Part shown: in pieces, positions 8,569 to 43,186 of the stretch
Layout: each line of letters opens with the position of its first letter
How positions within the stretch are numbered: position 1 is the first letter of the stretch
Source of the DNA: Blautia sp.
Lineage (GTDB): Bacteria > Bacillota > Clostridia > Lachnospirales > Lachnospiraceae
Assembly (NCBI GenBank): GCA_023667395.1
Contig: JAMPAC010000011.1
Span: forward strand, 1 to 54,660
Direction: 5' to 3'
DNA: 54,660 nucleotides
The notes under the pieces: generated by a model
Databases searched by the model: none
Told to the model about the DNA's origin: nothing
What the model saw: only the letters and a program-made list of their open reading frames with translations
Translations under genes and position numbers: made by a program

Positions 8569-8707
8569 CCTATTCCTTCCCCGCTTCTTATATCATATTA
8601 TACACATTCTCTCAGCAAATTACAATAAGCCGAAAATCCGGTTCACGGTATTTGTCACAGTTCGGCCACGATGGTGTTTGGCGGCTTTTCGGGTTGCTGC
8701 CAGAGAG

Positions 8708-8764
8708 ACGGCGGAGACATGCTGCCCTGTTCTATGCGGACGGAGCAGCACGCCTCCGCCTGAT
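8708..8764. repeat. Minimal copy of the foldback-element end
   Basis: GGCGGAGACATGCTGC (8710-8725) pairs almost perfectly with GCAGCACGCCTCCGCC (8745-8760). The sequence around it, including CCTGTTCT, GCGGACGGAGCA and CTCCGCCTGATTTCC, matches the outer ends of the large elements at 29,864 and 39,911. It looks like an internally deleted or solo version. Otherwise 8569-8834 holds only the terminator at 8783. Confidence 0.7.
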
Positions 8765-22221: not shown

Positions 22222-22342
22222 TTGTTCCGTCTCTGCATTTCAGCACCCTTGGCTCTGAAAGAAATTTCATCTGCAAAAACGCAGCTGAAATTCCTTTCAT
22301 GTGCCTATGGCACATTGGGCTTCCATTCCGAGACTGTTTCCA
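22222..22342. repeat. Intra-operon hairpin repeat, copy B
   Basis: It starts TTGTTCCGTCTCTG and ends TTCCGAGACTGTTT, like copies A and C. GAAAGAAATTTCA (22257-22269) pairs with TGAAATTCCTTTC (22286-22298), and ATGTGCC/GGCACAT (22299-22315) is a second small palindrome that copy A lacks and copy C has. Confidence 0.7.
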
Positions 22343-29807: not shown

Positions 29808-29863
29808 CATGGATTTTTGGGGGCGGTTTGCGGGGGGGCAGCGGCCTGGTAATTTCTGGCTGA

Positions 29864-30468
29864 GGGGACGGCGGTGGCATGCAGTCCTGTTCTGAGCGGA
29901 CGGGACAACGCGGCGCTGAACTAACTGCCAACTACGACTAGCACGCGGATAGGGCGTCCGCATTCAAGTCTCCGTAGGCAGTGGATTTCATCTCCGCTAA
30001 GTGCGTCCCCCAAAGTCCGCCCAGAACAGGACTACATGCCGCCGCCTGATATCCGCAGATTTTTTGAAAGAAATACAGGCCGCTTTCAATAGTCTATATA
30101 AAAACAAATCATTCAGGCTGCTCTATGACACTTTTCACAACCTGCAGTATACCAAAACCGGAGCAGCAGGATCCTTCAGGCCATCAAAAAACAGGCCGCC
30201 AGTCCTGTAGGACTGTTGATCCTTTCCCGTAGGAGAACTTTCAGGAATCAGGCGGAGACGTGTTGCCCTGTTCTGGGCGGACTTTGGGGAGCGCCCTTAG
30301 CAGGGATGAAATCCACTGCCTACGGAGACTATGGCGCGAAGACGCAATTCGCGCCATAGGAACTGGCGCATGTTTTCGCGACAGTTCCGTAGTCGTAGTT
30401 GGCAGTTAGTTCAGCACTGCGTTGCTCCGTCCGCACAGAACAGGACAGCACGGCTCCGCCGTCCCCTT
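29864..30468. mobile_element. Foldback element (MITE-like), copy 1
   Basis: Two arms face each other. The left arm (29864-30050) starts GGGGACGGCGG; the right arm (30247-30468) ends CCGCCGTCCCC. The first 75 nt of the left arm are nearly the reverse complement of the last 75 nt of the right arm, and the inner 80 nt of each arm match in the same way. Arm interiors differ: the left has GCGGATAGGGCGTCCGC, the right has CTATGGCGCGAA/TTCGCGCCATAG and AACTGGCGC...GCGACAGTT hairpins. Each arm is itself bounded by inverted ends containing CCTGTTCTG. The core (30051-30246) is richer in A and T. No protein is encoded. A second copy is at 39,911. Confidence 0.8.
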
Positions 30469-30534
30469 AGCACCAATCCACCAAATACCATAGGGCAGTT
30501 CCAGGAAAAAACGGGATAACAAATACATATGGAA

Positions 30535-38086: not shown

Positions 38087-38230
38087 GTTCCCGCCTGTGG
38101 GAACTTGTTCCGGGCTCTTCACTTCAGCCCCTTGCGGGGGAAGAAATTTTCATCTGTACAGACCACAGCTGAAAATTCCTTCCATGTGCCGTCCTTTGGC
38201 ACATTGGGCTCCCGTTCCGAGACTGTTTTT
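38087..38230. repeat. Intra-operon hairpin repeat, copy C
   Basis: It opens with GTTCCC...GGGAAC and contains GGAAGAAATTTTCA (38139-38152) pairing with TGAAAATTCCTTCC (38170-38183), then ATGTGCC/GGCACAT (38184-38203) and the closing GTTCCGAGACTGTTTT. It matches copies A and B near 22,100-22,342 and lies between nnr and alr. Confidence 0.7.
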
Positions 38231-38235
38231 TATTC

Positions 38236-38292
38236 CGGTTCCCACTTGCGGGAACTTGTTCCGGGCTCTTCACTTCAGCCCCTTGCGGGAAG
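38236..38292. repeat. Partial hairpin repeat, copy D, running into nnr
   Basis: GGTTCCCACTTGCGGGAAC followed by TTGTTCCGGGCTCTTCACTT repeats the first part of copy C. The match continues past the nnr stop (38270-38272) into its last codons and then ends, so the repeat has supplied the C-terminus of NnrD. Confidence 0.65.
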
Positions 38293-39775
38293 AAATCTCC
38301 GCCAGCGCTTCCGCGATGTCCCCTGCCATGCAGCCCCGCCGCCCTTTCCGGGCGGCTGCGGCGTCGCCCGCCCTGCCGTGGAGGTATACCGCCAGGGCAG
38401 CCGCCGTGAAGGCGTCCTCCGTCTGCGCCAGCAGCGTGCCGGTGATCCCCGCCAGCACGTCCCCGCTGCCGGCTGTTGCCATACCGCTGTTGCCGCAGAG
38501 GTTGAGATAAGCGGAGCCCTGTTCCCTGCATACGAACGTCCTGGCATCCTTTGCCGTGACGATCACATGGAACCGTTCCGCCAGTTCCTTTCCGTAAGTG
38601 AGCAGCGACTGTTTCAATTCCTGTATGGGCACTCCCGTCAGCCGGGAAAGTTCGCCCACATGGGGCGTCAGCACCACGTTCCTGCCCTTTGCGCCCTGTT
38701 CCTCCAGCAGCCGACACAGTTCCTCGTTTTCCGCCAGCAGGTTCAGGCCGTCGGCATCGATGACCAGGGGCTTTCTGCCGTATTGTAACGCCTGGCGCAG
38801 ACTGTTTATGGCGGACTGGCTCTTCCCGATGCCGGAGCCGATGACTGCCGCGTCCGCCCATTCCAGACTCGCCGCCAGTTCCCAGGGTGTCCCGAACAGC
38901 GCCTCCGGGACAGCCGTCTGGAGAACCACCCTGTTTTCCTCCGGGGAGATCACTTTCACCATGCCCGCGCCAGCGCGGTATGCGGCCTTTGCCGCCAGGA
39001 CGGCGGCTCCCGCCATATTGACGCTGCCCGCCGCCAGCAGCACTTTCCCGAAAGTGCCCTTGTTGCCGTCGCCTGCCCTGTCTGGCAGCAGGCTCTCCGG
39101 CTCCCCCGCAAAGGTGAACGTCTCCGGTTCCCTGCCGAAAAAACTCCGCTCCGTGATCCCAATGTCGGCGGTCACGATCTCCCCCGCCAAATCACAGCCC
39201 GGATACAGCCCAAGCCCCCTTTTCATAAAGCCGAAAGTGACCGTTGCATCCGCTTTTACCGCAGTTCCCCAGACTTTGCCGGTGTCGGAATCGACGCCGC
39301 TGGGAATGTCCAGCGCCAGCTTGAACCCCCTGCGCTTCTGGAATTCAGCCACCGCCAGGGCGTATTCTCCCGCAATCTCCCTGGAAAGGCCTACCCCGAA
39401 TAAGGCATCCACCATAACAGTATATTCATTTCTTTCCGGCGCGCTACTGAAACGTACCGGATAACTGTCTAAAACATGCCGCTGGGACTTCCACTGCTCC
39501 GTGGCTTTTCCCTCATTCCCCACACACCAGACCTCCGCCTGCCATCCCTTTTCCGCCAGAAGCCTGGCCAGGGCAAGTCCGTCGCCGCCGTTATTTCCCA
39601 TGCCGGTGAGGATCAGCGCGCTGCCGCTCTCCCAACGCCTCGCAATATAGTCCATGGCAGCCAGGGCCGCCCGCTCCATGAGCGTCATGCCCGGGATACC
39701 GATCCTGTCTATGGTGTTGCCGTCATACGCCTTCATTTCTTCCGCCGTAACAAGATACTGAATCTGTTTGTCCAT
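38270..39775 (-). CDS. nnr: Bifunctional NAD(P)H-hydrate epimerase / ADP-dependent dehydratase
   Basis: The 501-aa protein fuses an N-terminal epimerase (YjeF_N; LILTGMGNNGGDGLALARLL, about 1-210) to a C-terminal dehydratase (about 225-500; GKVLLAAGSVNMAGAAVLAA, and NSGMATAGSGDVLAGITGTL with the catalytic Asp). It repairs damaged NADHX and NADPHX in the cytosol. The ATG at 39775 follows AGAGG by 6 nt. The last residues (SRKGLK) come from a dispersed repeat. It is 199 nt upstream of alr, an order common in Firmicutes. Confidence 0.95.
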   Translation of the reverse strand: MDKQIQYLVTAEEMKAYDGNTIDRIGIPGMTLMERAALAAMDYIARRWESGSALILTGMGNNGGDGLALARLLAEKGWQAEVWCVGNEGKATEQWKSQRHVLDSYPVRFSSAPERNEYTVMVDALFGVGLSREIAGEYALAVAEFQKRRGFKLALDIPSGVDSDTGKVWGTAVKADATVTFGFMKRGLGLYPGCDLAGEIVTADIGITERSFFGREPETFTFAGEPESLLPDRAGDGNKGTFGKVLLAAGSVNMAGAAVLAAKAAYRAGAGMVKVISPEENRVVLQTAVPEALFGTPWELAASLEWADAAVIGSGIGKSQSAINSLRQALQYGRKPLVIDADGLNLLAENEELCRLLEEQGAKGRNVVLTPHVGELSRLTGVPIQELKQSLLTYGKELAERFHVIVTAKDARTFVCREQGSAYLNLCGNSGMATAGSGDVLAGITGTLLAQTEDAFTAAALAVYLHGRAGDAAAARKGRRGCMAGDIAEALAEISSRKGLK

Positions 39776-39910
39776 ATCGATCCTCTCTTCCATACCTATC
39801 AAGTGTACGCCTGTTTTTATAAAACTTCAACAGAAAAGATGTTTCAGCTTCCCCCAAAGGTAGCAGTTCAGCCCTCAATGGTGACTGGCGGTTTGGTGGT
39901 TTACGGCTGA

Positions 39911-40516
39911 TGGGACGGCGGCGGCATGCAGTCCTGTTCTGTGCGGACGGGACAACGCGGCGCTGAACTAACTGCCAACTACGACTAGCACGCGGATAGG
40001 GCATCCGCGTTCAAGTCTCCGTAGGCAGTGGATTTCATCCCCGCTAAGTGCGTCCCCCAAAGTCCGCTCAGAACAGGACTGCATGCCGCCGCCTGATATC
40101 CGCAGTTTTTTGAAAGAAATACGAGCGCTTTCGTCCATATGCAAATAATTCAAGCAGTTATTTGCTATTGTTTCACAGCCTGTAGTATATAAAAATCGGA
40201 GCAGCAGAATCCTGCATGCTTGCAGACCATCAAAAATATGCCATCAGTCCTGTAGGATATTCTTATCCATTCCTATATAGGAACTTTCAGGAATCAGGCG
40301 GAGACGTGCTGCCCTGTTCTGAGCGGACTTTGGGGAGCGCATTTAGCAGGGATGAAATCCACTGCCTACGCAGACTATGGCGCGAAGACGCAATTCGCGC
40401 CATAGGAACTGGCGCATGTTTTCGCGACAGTTCCGTAGTCGTAGTTGGCAGTTAGTTCAGCACTGCGTTGCTCCGTCCGCACAGAACAGGGTAGCACGTC
40501 TCCGCCGTCCCCTTAG
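39911..40516. mobile_element. Foldback element (MITE-like), copy 2
   Basis: The left arm (39911-40096) starts GGGACGGCGGCGGCATGCAG and the right arm (40294-40516) ends CCGCCGTCCCCTTA. Both are almost identical to the arms of the copy at 29,864, including the GCGGATAGGGC...TCCGC stem and the GGCGCGAA/TTCGCGCC hairpin. The core (40097-40293) keeps only scattered blocks such as TTTTTTGAAAGAAATAC, CAGTCCTGTAGGA and GAACTTTCAGGAATCAGG. It lies between nnr and the terminator of the envelope operon, where no gene is interrupted. Confidence 0.8.
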
Positions 40517-40546
40517 CCGGAAAACATCAGGGCTGAACTGTACCCC

Positions 40547-40592
40547 CAAAGAAAACGGGAACCATGAGCAAAAATTTCGCTCACGGTTCCCG
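40547..40592 (-). terminator. Terminator of the five-gene envelope operon
   Basis: On the minus strand CGGGAACCGTGAGC pairs with GCTCATGGTTCCCG (40592-40556), followed by TTTTCTTTGG. A further GGGAACC/GGTTCCC palindrome lies near 40,660. Both are downstream of the VWA gene. The rest of 40,517-40,729 has no gene. Confidence 0.8.
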
Positions 40593-40729: not shown

Positions 40730-43186
40730 TCATCCCGCCTTGATCGCGTTCCATGCCGCTTTGGTGACAGGGTCGAAACGGGTCTCATTGCTCTCGCCGA
40801 AATACCTGTGTACCCGGCCCCGCAGATCTTCATATGAGATCGACGGATTGTTCCAATAAATATCATATGCTGCAGAAAATACCAACTCATACCGGTAATT
40901 ATACAGCGCGCTGAAGTTCTGATAAAGAACGGGATTCGCCCTGATGATCTCCGATACCGTATCGCCGTCCAGGGTGCCGTTCCCGCTGACCACCCCGAGG
41001 GAGATCATCTTCGCCAGCTGCTTCTGCCCGTTTTCACCGTCTCCAAACTGATAACCGTTCATGGCATAATATATATTGATGATCGTCTGAACCGCTTCCA
41101 GGTCGTCCCCCAGCTTTGAAAGGTCATCACTGGACAGATACCTGCCGTCCGTATAGAACGAACTCAGGTCATCCGCGCTGAACATCGACGATGCGTATGC
41201 CTGCTGGAGCGCCTCCGCATTCAGTTCCGTCTCCAGACGCACGCTCAGGTTCGCCGTATCATCCGCGTAAAGCACATAAATATCCCTGTTCACGTCATTG
41301 GGAACCACTGTCTGGTACGTCAGTTCATACAGCTTCCCCTGCGCCTCATAAATACTCGTATAAATGCTCTGCAAGTCGTAAATGGACACTCTGTCATAAT
41401 ACGCGCCGCCGGTGGACTCCGCGATATTTTTCAGTTCACTGGAATAAACAGAATTCCCAAGACCGATGATATACACGGGAACCTTATAATAATTGGACAC
41501 ATCAATGACGTCCTGTGCGTTATAATCATATCCTGAACCGTAGGGCTCATTATGCCCGTCGGTGAATGCCACAACGCATCTCGCCCCTTCCGCAGAAGCC
41601 GTATAGACCACGGAGGAATACAGGGACTGATATAAACTTGTGCGCCCGTAACATGCAAGTCCCCATACAGCGTCTATGATGCGTTCCTTATCCGATGTAA
41701 ACTCCTGGTGTCTCTCATAAATGCTTCCGATCGTCGAAAGCCCCAGCTGCGTATCCGCATGGGTGGAATCCACAAATCCTTCCAATGCTTCCTGCATCGT
41801 TATGAAGTCATAGAACATACTACTGGACACATCCGCCACAAGATCCATGGTGAGCGAACCCCTGATCTGGGTGATGCCGGTAGCGTTGCACTGTGACCAC
41901 GTCCCGCCGTTTTCCTCATATACCATGAAGTCATTCAGCTGGAAATCATACTCGTCATAATGATAGGAACTCAGGTACAGCTTCACTTCATTCTCTCCGG
42001 ACACATCCGCCTGGATAAAACTGGCAATCTGCTCCCCCGCCCTGGATGCGGACTGGAACCTGTCCGACCACTCCTTCAGCTGGAGATATTTCATGCGAAG
42101 CTGCACATAATCCTGTTCCGCGCCGGACGCCTCGATCCCGTCCACGCAATCCCCGATCATATACGCTTCAAAGGGATGCGCCGCATATCCGCCCATGGCG
42201 GACCGGATACTTTGGGCATCCGACACATAGGCGGACGCTTTCGCCTCGTTATCGGCAATGATGACATCCCGCACCGCCGCGAAATCCCCAGACAGGCTCT
42301 CGCACTTCTTCTCGTCAAAAGCGGAAAGAGCCGCCTCCAGGTCTGATTTTATCTGCTGGTATTCCGTTTCATGGTCATCCAGGAAATAATGACCCTCCGT
42401 CTCCATCCGGCTGACGATCTCCTCGTACTGTGTCCGGTATCCGGCAACAGCCTCATTCATGCTCCTGATCTCGCCGGACAGGGTGTCCATTTCTTCCACC
42501 AGGCTTTTGGATTTCTTCTCGTCAAGATCGGACAGGGCATCCTCCAGATCGGATTTGATGCTCTGGTATTCCTCCTCATAGTCGCCCATGATATATTGGC
42601 CGTCCGTCTCCATCTGACTGACGATCTCCTCATACTGTTCCCGGTATCCGGCAACAGCCTTGCCCGCTTTCCTGATCTCGTCGGACAGATCTTCCATCTC
42701 TCCGATCAGGCGTTTATATTGCCAGAACCGGAAATGTGAAGCGGCGGCATCCGCAGTATCCAGAAGGCCGTCATACCCGCTTTCGTAATTTCCCAAGCCG
42801 TCATACTCCGTCTGCACTTCTGCAAAAACGGCCATGGTCTCTTTAAATTCTTTCGTCTTTACCAGACCATACCCGGCAACCCCCAGAAAGCCCATGATCA
42901 GCGCTGCTGCTGCGCATACCAGCGCGATTATCAGGGATTCCCGGCTTTTTCCGCCTTTTTCACCCTTGGGGGATTTCTGTTTGGATTTCCCCTGGGGTTT
43001 GCCGTTAGGTTTTCCCTGGGATGACGCCTGGGATGGCTCCTCAGGCGTCATCCCAGGCGGTATCGGCGACATATTACCAGCTTTGTTTTCCGGTTCCCGT
43101 TGTACGGCGGTTTTTACAGGCGCCCCGCAGTTGGCGCAGAATTGCTCTCCCTCCGAGATCGGGCTTCCGCAATTTTCACAAAACAT
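40730..43186 (-). CDS. Zinc-ribbon membrane protein with coiled-coil repeats and a VWA domain
   Basis: The 818-aa protein has a CENC...CANC zinc ribbon (3-20), a Lys/Gly/Pro-rich linker, one membrane segment (about 84-107), and two tandem 69-residue helical repeats (161-229 and 230-298). A VWA domain follows (about 447-615), with MIDAS residues DVSSS (452-456), Thr in YGRTSLY and Asp in FTDGHNEP. The C-terminal region (about 630-818) is unassigned. VWA domains bind ligands through a metal ion, so an outward-facing adhesive or assembly role is likely. The repeats match at DNA level (GACGATCTCCTC and CCGGTATCCGGCAACAGCC recur), so the duplication is recent. It is the last gene of the operon; GGAGG lies 7 nt before the ATG. 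Confidence 0.8.
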   Translation of the reverse strand: MFCENCGSPISEGEQFCANCGAPVKTAVQREPENKAGNMSPIPPGMTPEEPSQASSQGKPNGKPQGKSKQKSPKGEKGGKSRESLIIALVCAAAALIMGFLGVAGYGLVKTKEFKETMAVFAEVQTEYDGLGNYESGYDGLLDTADAAASHFRFWQYKRLIGEMEDLSDEIRKAGKAVAGYREQYEEIVSQMETDGQYIMGDYEEEYQSIKSDLEDALSDLDEKKSKSLVEEMDTLSGEIRSMNEAVAGYRTQYEEIVSRMETEGHYFLDDHETEYQQIKSDLEAALSAFDEKKCESLSGDFAAVRDVIIADNEAKASAYVSDAQSIRSAMGGYAAHPFEAYMIGDCVDGIEASGAEQDYVQLRMKYLQLKEWSDRFQSASRAGEQIASFIQADVSGENEVKLYLSSYHYDEYDFQLNDFMVYEENGGTWSQCNATGITQIRGSLTMDLVADVSSSMFYDFITMQEALEGFVDSTHADTQLGLSTIGSIYERHQEFTSDKERIIDAVWGLACYGRTSLYQSLYSSVVYTASAEGARCVVAFTDGHNEPYGSGYDYNAQDVIDVSNYYKVPVYIIGLGNSVYSSELKNIAESTGGAYYDRVSIYDLQSIYTSIYEAQGKLYELTYQTVVPNDVNRDIYVLYADDTANLSVRLETELNAEALQQAYASSMFSADDLSSFYTDGRYLSSDDLSKLGDDLEAVQTIINIYYAMNGYQFGDGENGQKQLAKMISLGVVSGNGTLDGDTVSEIIRANPVLYQNFSALYNYRYELVFSAAYDIYWNNPSISYEDLRGRVHRYFGESNETRFDPVTKAAWNAIKAG

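Follow-up and report, generated by a model that had tools for sequence, protein, structure and literature searches.

A MITE-type element in a Blautia genome carries a putative folded module whose core is shared between genera

The DNA analyzed here (the window) was a stretch of 54,660 nucleotides from Blautia sp., which lies in contig 22 of a genome of 4.43 Mb and 206 contigs (G000). Two loci in the window, at 29864–30468 and 39911–40516, had been predicted from their sequence to carry the same 605 bp foldback architecture. Comparison of the two sites bore this out: the left blocks (224 nt) were 93% identical and the right blocks (253 nt) were 94% identical, at spacings of 10,047 and 10,046 bp. 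Description of the copies as near-identical was accurate for the arms (93–94%) but not for the spacer, and the 605 bases overall were 88% identical. Both copies had ordinary chromosomal genes as neighbors, which encoded an FtsK/SpoIIIE protein and a Clp protease-like protein for copy 1, and an NAD(P)H-hydrate dehydratase and a zinc-ribbon/VWA protein for copy 2. The gene for the zinc-ribbon/VWA protein also held a 161 bp direct repeat (42293–42453 and 42500–42660, 80% identical). The expected lack of coding sequence was confirmed, as no ORF of at least 80 aa lay wholly within either copy, and the longest inside copy 1 was 69 aa. One mechanically called ORF of 177 aa extended into copy 1, and four others, of 84–144 aa, overlapped an edge of copy 2.

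Each 605 bp body consisted of two related hairpin modules in inverted orientation around an AT-richer, variable spacer, and each module was itself a palindrome. In copy 1, the left module (29870–30046, minus strand, core 29899–30018) and the right module (30251–30460, plus strand, core 30279–30431) were placed by their register with copy 2, and matched our covariance model of the module (R2) at 127.3 and 117.8 bits, respectively; the spacer occupied 30047–30250. In copy 2, the left module (39917–40093, minus strand, core 39946–40065) was placed by its inverted pairing and scored 126.6 bits with R2. The right module (40297–40506, plus strand), placed in the same way, comprised a core at 40325–40477 and an extra inner hairpin, and scored 116.3 bits; the region separating the two modules, 40094–40296, was the spacer. 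The arms were inverted as proposed, and the paired blocks, put originally at about 75 and 80 nt, measured 82 and 107 nt: in copy 1, 29859–29940 paired with 30390–30471 (82 nt, 88% complementary), and 29944–30050 paired with 30247–30353 (107 nt, 80% complementary). The hairpin GGCGCGAA/TTCGCGCC, which had been noticed inside the arms, was found in the right half of each copy. When 35 halves were aligned over 222 columns, the right half read forward proved to be the same module as the left half read backward, with a mean identity of 82%.

Alignment of the flanks revealed that the element runs beyond the limits of the original prediction to a terminal GTAACAGTTCAGCCCCGATGG and its mirror, the true ends lying 27–51 bp farther outward. 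These ends, GTAACAGTTCAG...CTGAACTGTTAC, are terminal inverted repeats (TIRs), as seen in 45 aligned ends. Because the right half forward equals the left half backward, the full element reads as TIR, module (minus), spacer, module (plus), and TIR. Copy 2 is a complete element of 684 bp (39860–40543), delimited by a match to the TIR model at 39860–39921, by reading of the ends, and by a duplication on both sides. Its left TIR (GTAGCAGTTCAGCCC..., 39860–39911, plus strand) was placed by end alignment and by the TIR model (R1), whereas its right TIR (GTACAGTTCAGCCCT... on the minus strand, 40511–40543) is shortened. The target-site duplication CCCCAAAG lies at 39852–39859 on the left and 40544–40551 on the right, and the two are identical in 8 of 8 bases.

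Fifteen elements of G000 had both ends visible, and target duplications were examined in them by comparing the 8 bases outside the fixed ends. Results showed that seven of the 15 matched at six or more of the eight positions, versus one of 210 mismatched-pair controls, and that the other eight fell below six matching bases. The mean match outside the ends peaked at length 8 (60% vs. 26% in the control). At fixed ends copy 2 itself scored 5/8 (and 7/7 at length 7), since it is shorter by one base on the right; with one base of slack there, its duplication was perfect. Copy 1 had no clear target duplication. Its ends are decayed, and its extent of ~688 bp (29819–30506) was taken from comparison with the syntenic place in the close relative G108.

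That comparison also yielded the empty site that had been proposed as a check. In place of the 688 bases at 29819–30506, G108 held 14 bases between flanks that were 89.5% and 90.6% identical to ours; thus, the boundaries of copy 1 are known to about 15 bases each. This was the only empty site aligned. The stretch of G108 examined at the place of copy 2 held no element, but it does not count as a clean empty site because its right flank was unalignable. A third, truncated copy, at 8654–8760 of the window (plus strand, R1 match 8654–8715), consisted of one TIR and a short outer-arm hairpin without the core. This copy and L391 (G108 C43, near 95700) seemingly occupy the same site in both species, with a shared left flank. 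Because the internal remains differ between the species, this site would reflect an old insertion with later, separate deletions.

Searches of the genome and its relatives, suggested as a check on the original prediction, uncovered many further copies. The 605 bases had 98 BLAST matches in G000, a count that covers both strands, the halves being palindromic. The R2 model had 58 matches at E ≤ 0.01, 38 of them above 50 bits; the 20 below 50 bits were 19 opposite-strand shadows and one partial match, and the figure of 38 is a lower bound. Decayed forms and others with internal deletions were also present in the genome, as were left and right halves on their own, and many remnants were without the core or without nearly everything between the TIRs. 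Since TIR remnants without the module exist, the module is not required for the element to persist. In G000, no fewer than 15 contig ends fell within the element, which may help explain fragmented assemblies.

Beyond this genome, BLAST with the right half matched 13 of 138 genomes of the genus, and the TIR model R1 matched 5 of 138, fewer than did the module. R2 matched 30 of 397 sampled genomes of the family, in 28 of 334 genera, and often in multiple copies; the BLAST and R2 counts include our own genome. Elsewhere the outer arms and the TIRs had other sequences from lineage to lineage but kept their pairing, and the core was the common part. An exact core pattern was found in at least 107 stretches of a public genome collection. 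Among the 80 listed, the titles of 77 named Lachnospiraceae, Acetatifactor or Dorea, and the remaining three named Clostridiaceae, Clostridia and Eubacterium. The same pattern had 0 matches in viral contigs, and the whole element had none in phage and plasmid collections. Whole-element BLAST, which is less sensitive than R2, gave 0 matches in 24 genomes of other families in the order. We concluded that the predicted module has a wider distribution than the element found in this genome. A few elements of other lineages had different TIRs with candidate duplications of 8–9 bp (L181, L120, L184, L188). A duplication scan in these lineages was overall little above control (34/63 vs. 105/252), so only the best single cases carry weight. 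Rfam covariance models matched no family in the window, and at eight other loci their only match above cut-off was the tmRNA gene adjoining the L225 module; a hairpin-shaped microRNA model scored 35.6 on that module, against a cut-off of 82. Among the papers listed by searches of the open-access literature, none described the element in its title or abstract.

The modules had in common an inner core, in which AUCC/UAG and GNA/GNA internal loops lie beside two covarying helices (P3 and P4). Judged by eye, the module is bordered by CAG at its 5′ foot and by CGTC, usually CGTCC, at its 3′ foot. Covariance analysis had been named as a check, and compensatory changes were indeed found across genera. 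The main pairing test took a single sequence per genome, 34 in all, set the anchors by position only, and excluded six additional copies and two partial matches (G421, G293). The six pairs of P4 formed in 32 to 34 of the 34 sequences; five of them beat all 2000 shuffles, and the remaining pair was reached by one of the 2000. In P3, whose first six pairs were tested, four pairs beat every one of the 2000 shuffles and the other two were reached by 39 and 122, the fifth pair forming in 24 of 34 sequences only. The same pairing picture emerged from a larger set, of 42 sequences from 36 genomes, with the qualification that its anchor pair maximized P4 pairing, which favors P4, and that two rows (G390b, G467) look mis-anchored. 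In the larger set the AUCC and UAG letters, which were the script's own anchors, occurred in 42 of 42 sequences; 38 had a U.U mispair, and the G.A mispair and the A.G mispair were each present in 30. Outer arms can differ wholly within one genome yet pair (L186 and L228; the L211 copies). In G458 (L427–L440), the tips of some similar-armed copies were wholly different by eye and were still paired. We also observed a third hairpin module (CTTTCTGTGACGGCTCGATAGG..., ~170 nt), whose CAG...CGTCCC borders were the same and whose core was unrelated; it replaced one module in L014, L019, L020, L010 and L052, and was seen also in L078 and L079.

The compensatory changes are compatible with folded DNA as well as with structured RNA. 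In copy 1, the predicted RNA fold of 29850–30485 reached −385 kcal/mol, versus −205 ± 8.7 in 20 shuffles (z = −20.8), and the opposite strand folded equally strongly (z = −20.5). Mispairs on the module strand were G.T in 108 cases and A.C in 73 (47 modules), with 17 genomes for this bias, 5 against, and 5 ties. In an earlier set, from which six of 69 modules with short flanks were dropped, G.T outnumbered A.C in the 32 modules of G000 by 40 to 18 (outer arms) and 20 to 5 (inner helix); in 31 modules of relatives, the corresponding counts were 24 to 22 and 19 to 11. This bias weakly suggests that the module strand folds as a single strand, and wobble of this kind does not specify RNA. The possibility that the core encodes a peptide (ATG AAA TCC ...) was rejected because neither the start codon nor the frame is kept, as judged by eye.

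We examined the surroundings of the module in the 80 listed of the at least 107 core-pattern stretches, which were used for the counts of neighboring genes, gene orientation and replication strand. These 80 loci held 82 matches, of which 33 were dropped for want of a flanking ORF. Only two of the 49 classifiable modules lay within an ORF, and nearly all were in intergenic gaps. No recurrent family of neighboring genes emerged, the largest cluster covering 4 of 109 clustered loci. For replication sense, 68 of the 80 loci could be scored, 36 as leading and 32 as lagging. In the nearly complete genome G262, 28 matches were found in 20 sampled stretches; with three inverted pairs set aside, 22 were counted and 15 of these were lagging. 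A first look at G262 had placed 8 of 9 on the lagging strand, taking the contig start as the origin, and the larger counts did not confirm such targeting: 47 of 90 were lagging-sense overall, which shows no bias.

Passages of PMC2229807 describe bacterial MITEs (Correia/NEMIS, ERIC, RUP, CIR and others) as likewise lacking a protein, having TIRs and target duplications, lying mainly between genes, and forming long stem-loops. The families described there are ~100–200 bp long, and four of the seven tabulated have TA termini without reservation, whereas the present element is ~690 bp long, with GTAAC ends and an 8 bp duplication. It differs further in that the inner folded core, and not the ends, is shared between genera. 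The element has no transposase gene of its own, ends in TIRs, makes target duplications, and is multicopy with one empty site, and by these properties it is a MITE-type element.

We sought the enzyme that might mobilize it. On the IS66 contigs and at the TIR matches that we read, no autonomous element with the same ends was found. The IS66 family has GTAA ends and makes 8 bp duplications, and in these two respects the element is alike. IS66 genes lie on three contigs of G000, and on the two where the ends were visible these read GTAAGCG, continue differently, and show no further likeness to the element; we rejected IS66 as the mobilizer. Inverted module pairs 1–3 kb apart occurred in G421, G458, G391 and G217, and in the first three of these no transposase was recognized by eye. 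A 7.1 kb 'composite' in G108 was likewise set aside, as most likely one region assembled twice. Contigs 23 and 24 of G108, of 41,930 and 41,929 bases, look like duplicate assemblies of one region. A terminal sequence, CAATGTCATTAAGTTAAG, found where contigs of G391 end (L415, L418, L420), resembles the TIR of the module-bearing element in G385 (L181, L421, L423); no transposase was recognized by eye at these G391 contig ends. The resemblance suggests that an insertion-sequence family may lie behind the G385 lineage.

The original prediction left the choice between a transposable element and a large structured RNA, and its two options were partly both right, because a mobile element carries a structured module. 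The mobile element is well supported. The structured RNA is borne out in part, by a module with conserved internal loops and compensatory changes that may act as RNA. Far from only two copies existing in a setting without an empty site or compensatory changes, further copies, an empty site and compensatory changes were all found. One alternative takes the module to be a functional structured RNA, such as a ribozyme or small RNA, that was acquired and spread by several MITE families. The conserved internal loops, GNA/GNA among them, the compensatory changes across genera, and the G.T excess of 108 to 73 are all consistent with it. However, that excess is small for an RNA (24 to 22 in the outer arms of relatives), and many of the mispairs are inherited rather than independent. 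Modules showed no preferred orientation to neighboring genes (21 same, 15 opposite), and none matched an Rfam family above its cut-off. Promoter-like sites were at about chance level (one in the body of copy 1, none in copy 2), and terminator-like sites lie within both copies (three in copy 1 and two in copy 2, with about one expected by chance). Runs of five or more T occurred in just 4 of 14 G458 modules; there they could end transcription inside the module, and with so few of them we rejected a terminator function for the module. We regard a functional RNA as possible but rather unlikely. Less likely still is a module without function, in which a selfish palindrome has its arms matched by template-switch repair of quasi-palindromes, a process known to correct long palindromes, and in which the core looks conserved merely through recent spread between species. 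The mismatched loop that became a perfect palindrome at L037 fits such repair, as do the arms or tips that differ wholly within one genome yet pair. But correction would erase internal loops, and the G.A and A.G mispairs have each been kept in 30 of 42 sequences; the AUCC/UAG letters, anchors though they are, recur in all 42, and the differences in the core between genera come with compensatory changes.

Two other known systems were also weighed. REP/BIME palindromes with RAYT are intergenic, form inverted pairs, and bear a short motif at the foot. A comparable system here would have hairpins moved as single strands by an HUH Y1 transposase (RAYT), with the module pair as the BIME equivalent. 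Our modules resemble this in their inverted pairing, their intergenic scatter and, by eye, the short motif at the hairpin foot, and differ from it in their length of ~180–210 nt. A search for Y1_Tnp (PF01797) found none in G000, G108, G159 or G001, whose assemblies are incomplete, and the domain occurred in 11 of 26 carriers vs. 8 of 16 non-carriers, which is no association. The lack of replication-strand bias and the 8 bp duplications do not fit either. Such a system is largely refuted for this genome, and as an account of the module we consider it extremely improbable. Scarcely more credible is a folded single-strand recombination site comparable to the attC sites of integrons, which are imperfect palindromes with conserved mismatches and a variable tip. 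The module shares the imperfect palindrome, the conserved mid mismatches and the variable tip; however, the outer arms are a variable part here, and the modules sit within TIRs with target duplications. Moreover, no neighboring gene recurred, and no attC R/L boxes were seen by eye.

We return to the reading that we favor and hold to be probably correct, a MITE-type element without a gene of its own, whose folded inner module is kept by selection. The GTAACAGTTCAG ends would be recognized by a transposase provided in trans, probably of the DDE type and cutting target DNA with an 8 bp stagger, which would insert the element between genes; since almost all classifiable copies are intergenic, such insertions beside genes would be tolerated. 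Full copies carry two of the predicted folded modules, and shorter ones one or none. The outer arm and tip vary but keep their pairing, with the conserved loops lying between the covarying helices. Because the core, and not the TIR, is common to 28 genera, we infer that selection preserves the module as a folded single strand, which could be RNA, extruded DNA or single-stranded DNA. The module would most likely serve as a recognition structure for a host or transposition factor that aids survival or movement. What the comparisons between genomes make clear is that the putative folded module, with its compensatory changes, is the widespread part.

More tentatively, we propose that the CAG...CGTCC module could be an undescribed structured nucleic acid, present in about one in 13 of the genomes sampled from the family and on several TIR families, whose AUCC/UAG and GNA/GNA fold may be read by a specific protein or be catalytic as RNA. 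We would put this as a real possibility and less than an expectation. If true, it would define a class of mobile elements with a conserved folded interior and exchangeable ends, the reverse of an ordinary MITE. MITEs are usually recognized by their ends, whereas here the inside is common across genera, and the ends, outer arms and tips are exchanged with their complementarity preserved. A shared inside would point to a factor that reads the folded strand in common gut bacteria. Since the family is large (38 modules, 28 genera), the partner of the module could be found by co-occurrence or by pull-down.

The window also contains a second interspersed repeat of ~206 bp, at 38092–38297. It is absent at the syntenic place in G108, where the flanks meet within about 2 bases. 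Stretches resembling this repeat were found at many places in G108, and a related short repeat in the window, at 22304–22339, pairs with 38193–38228.
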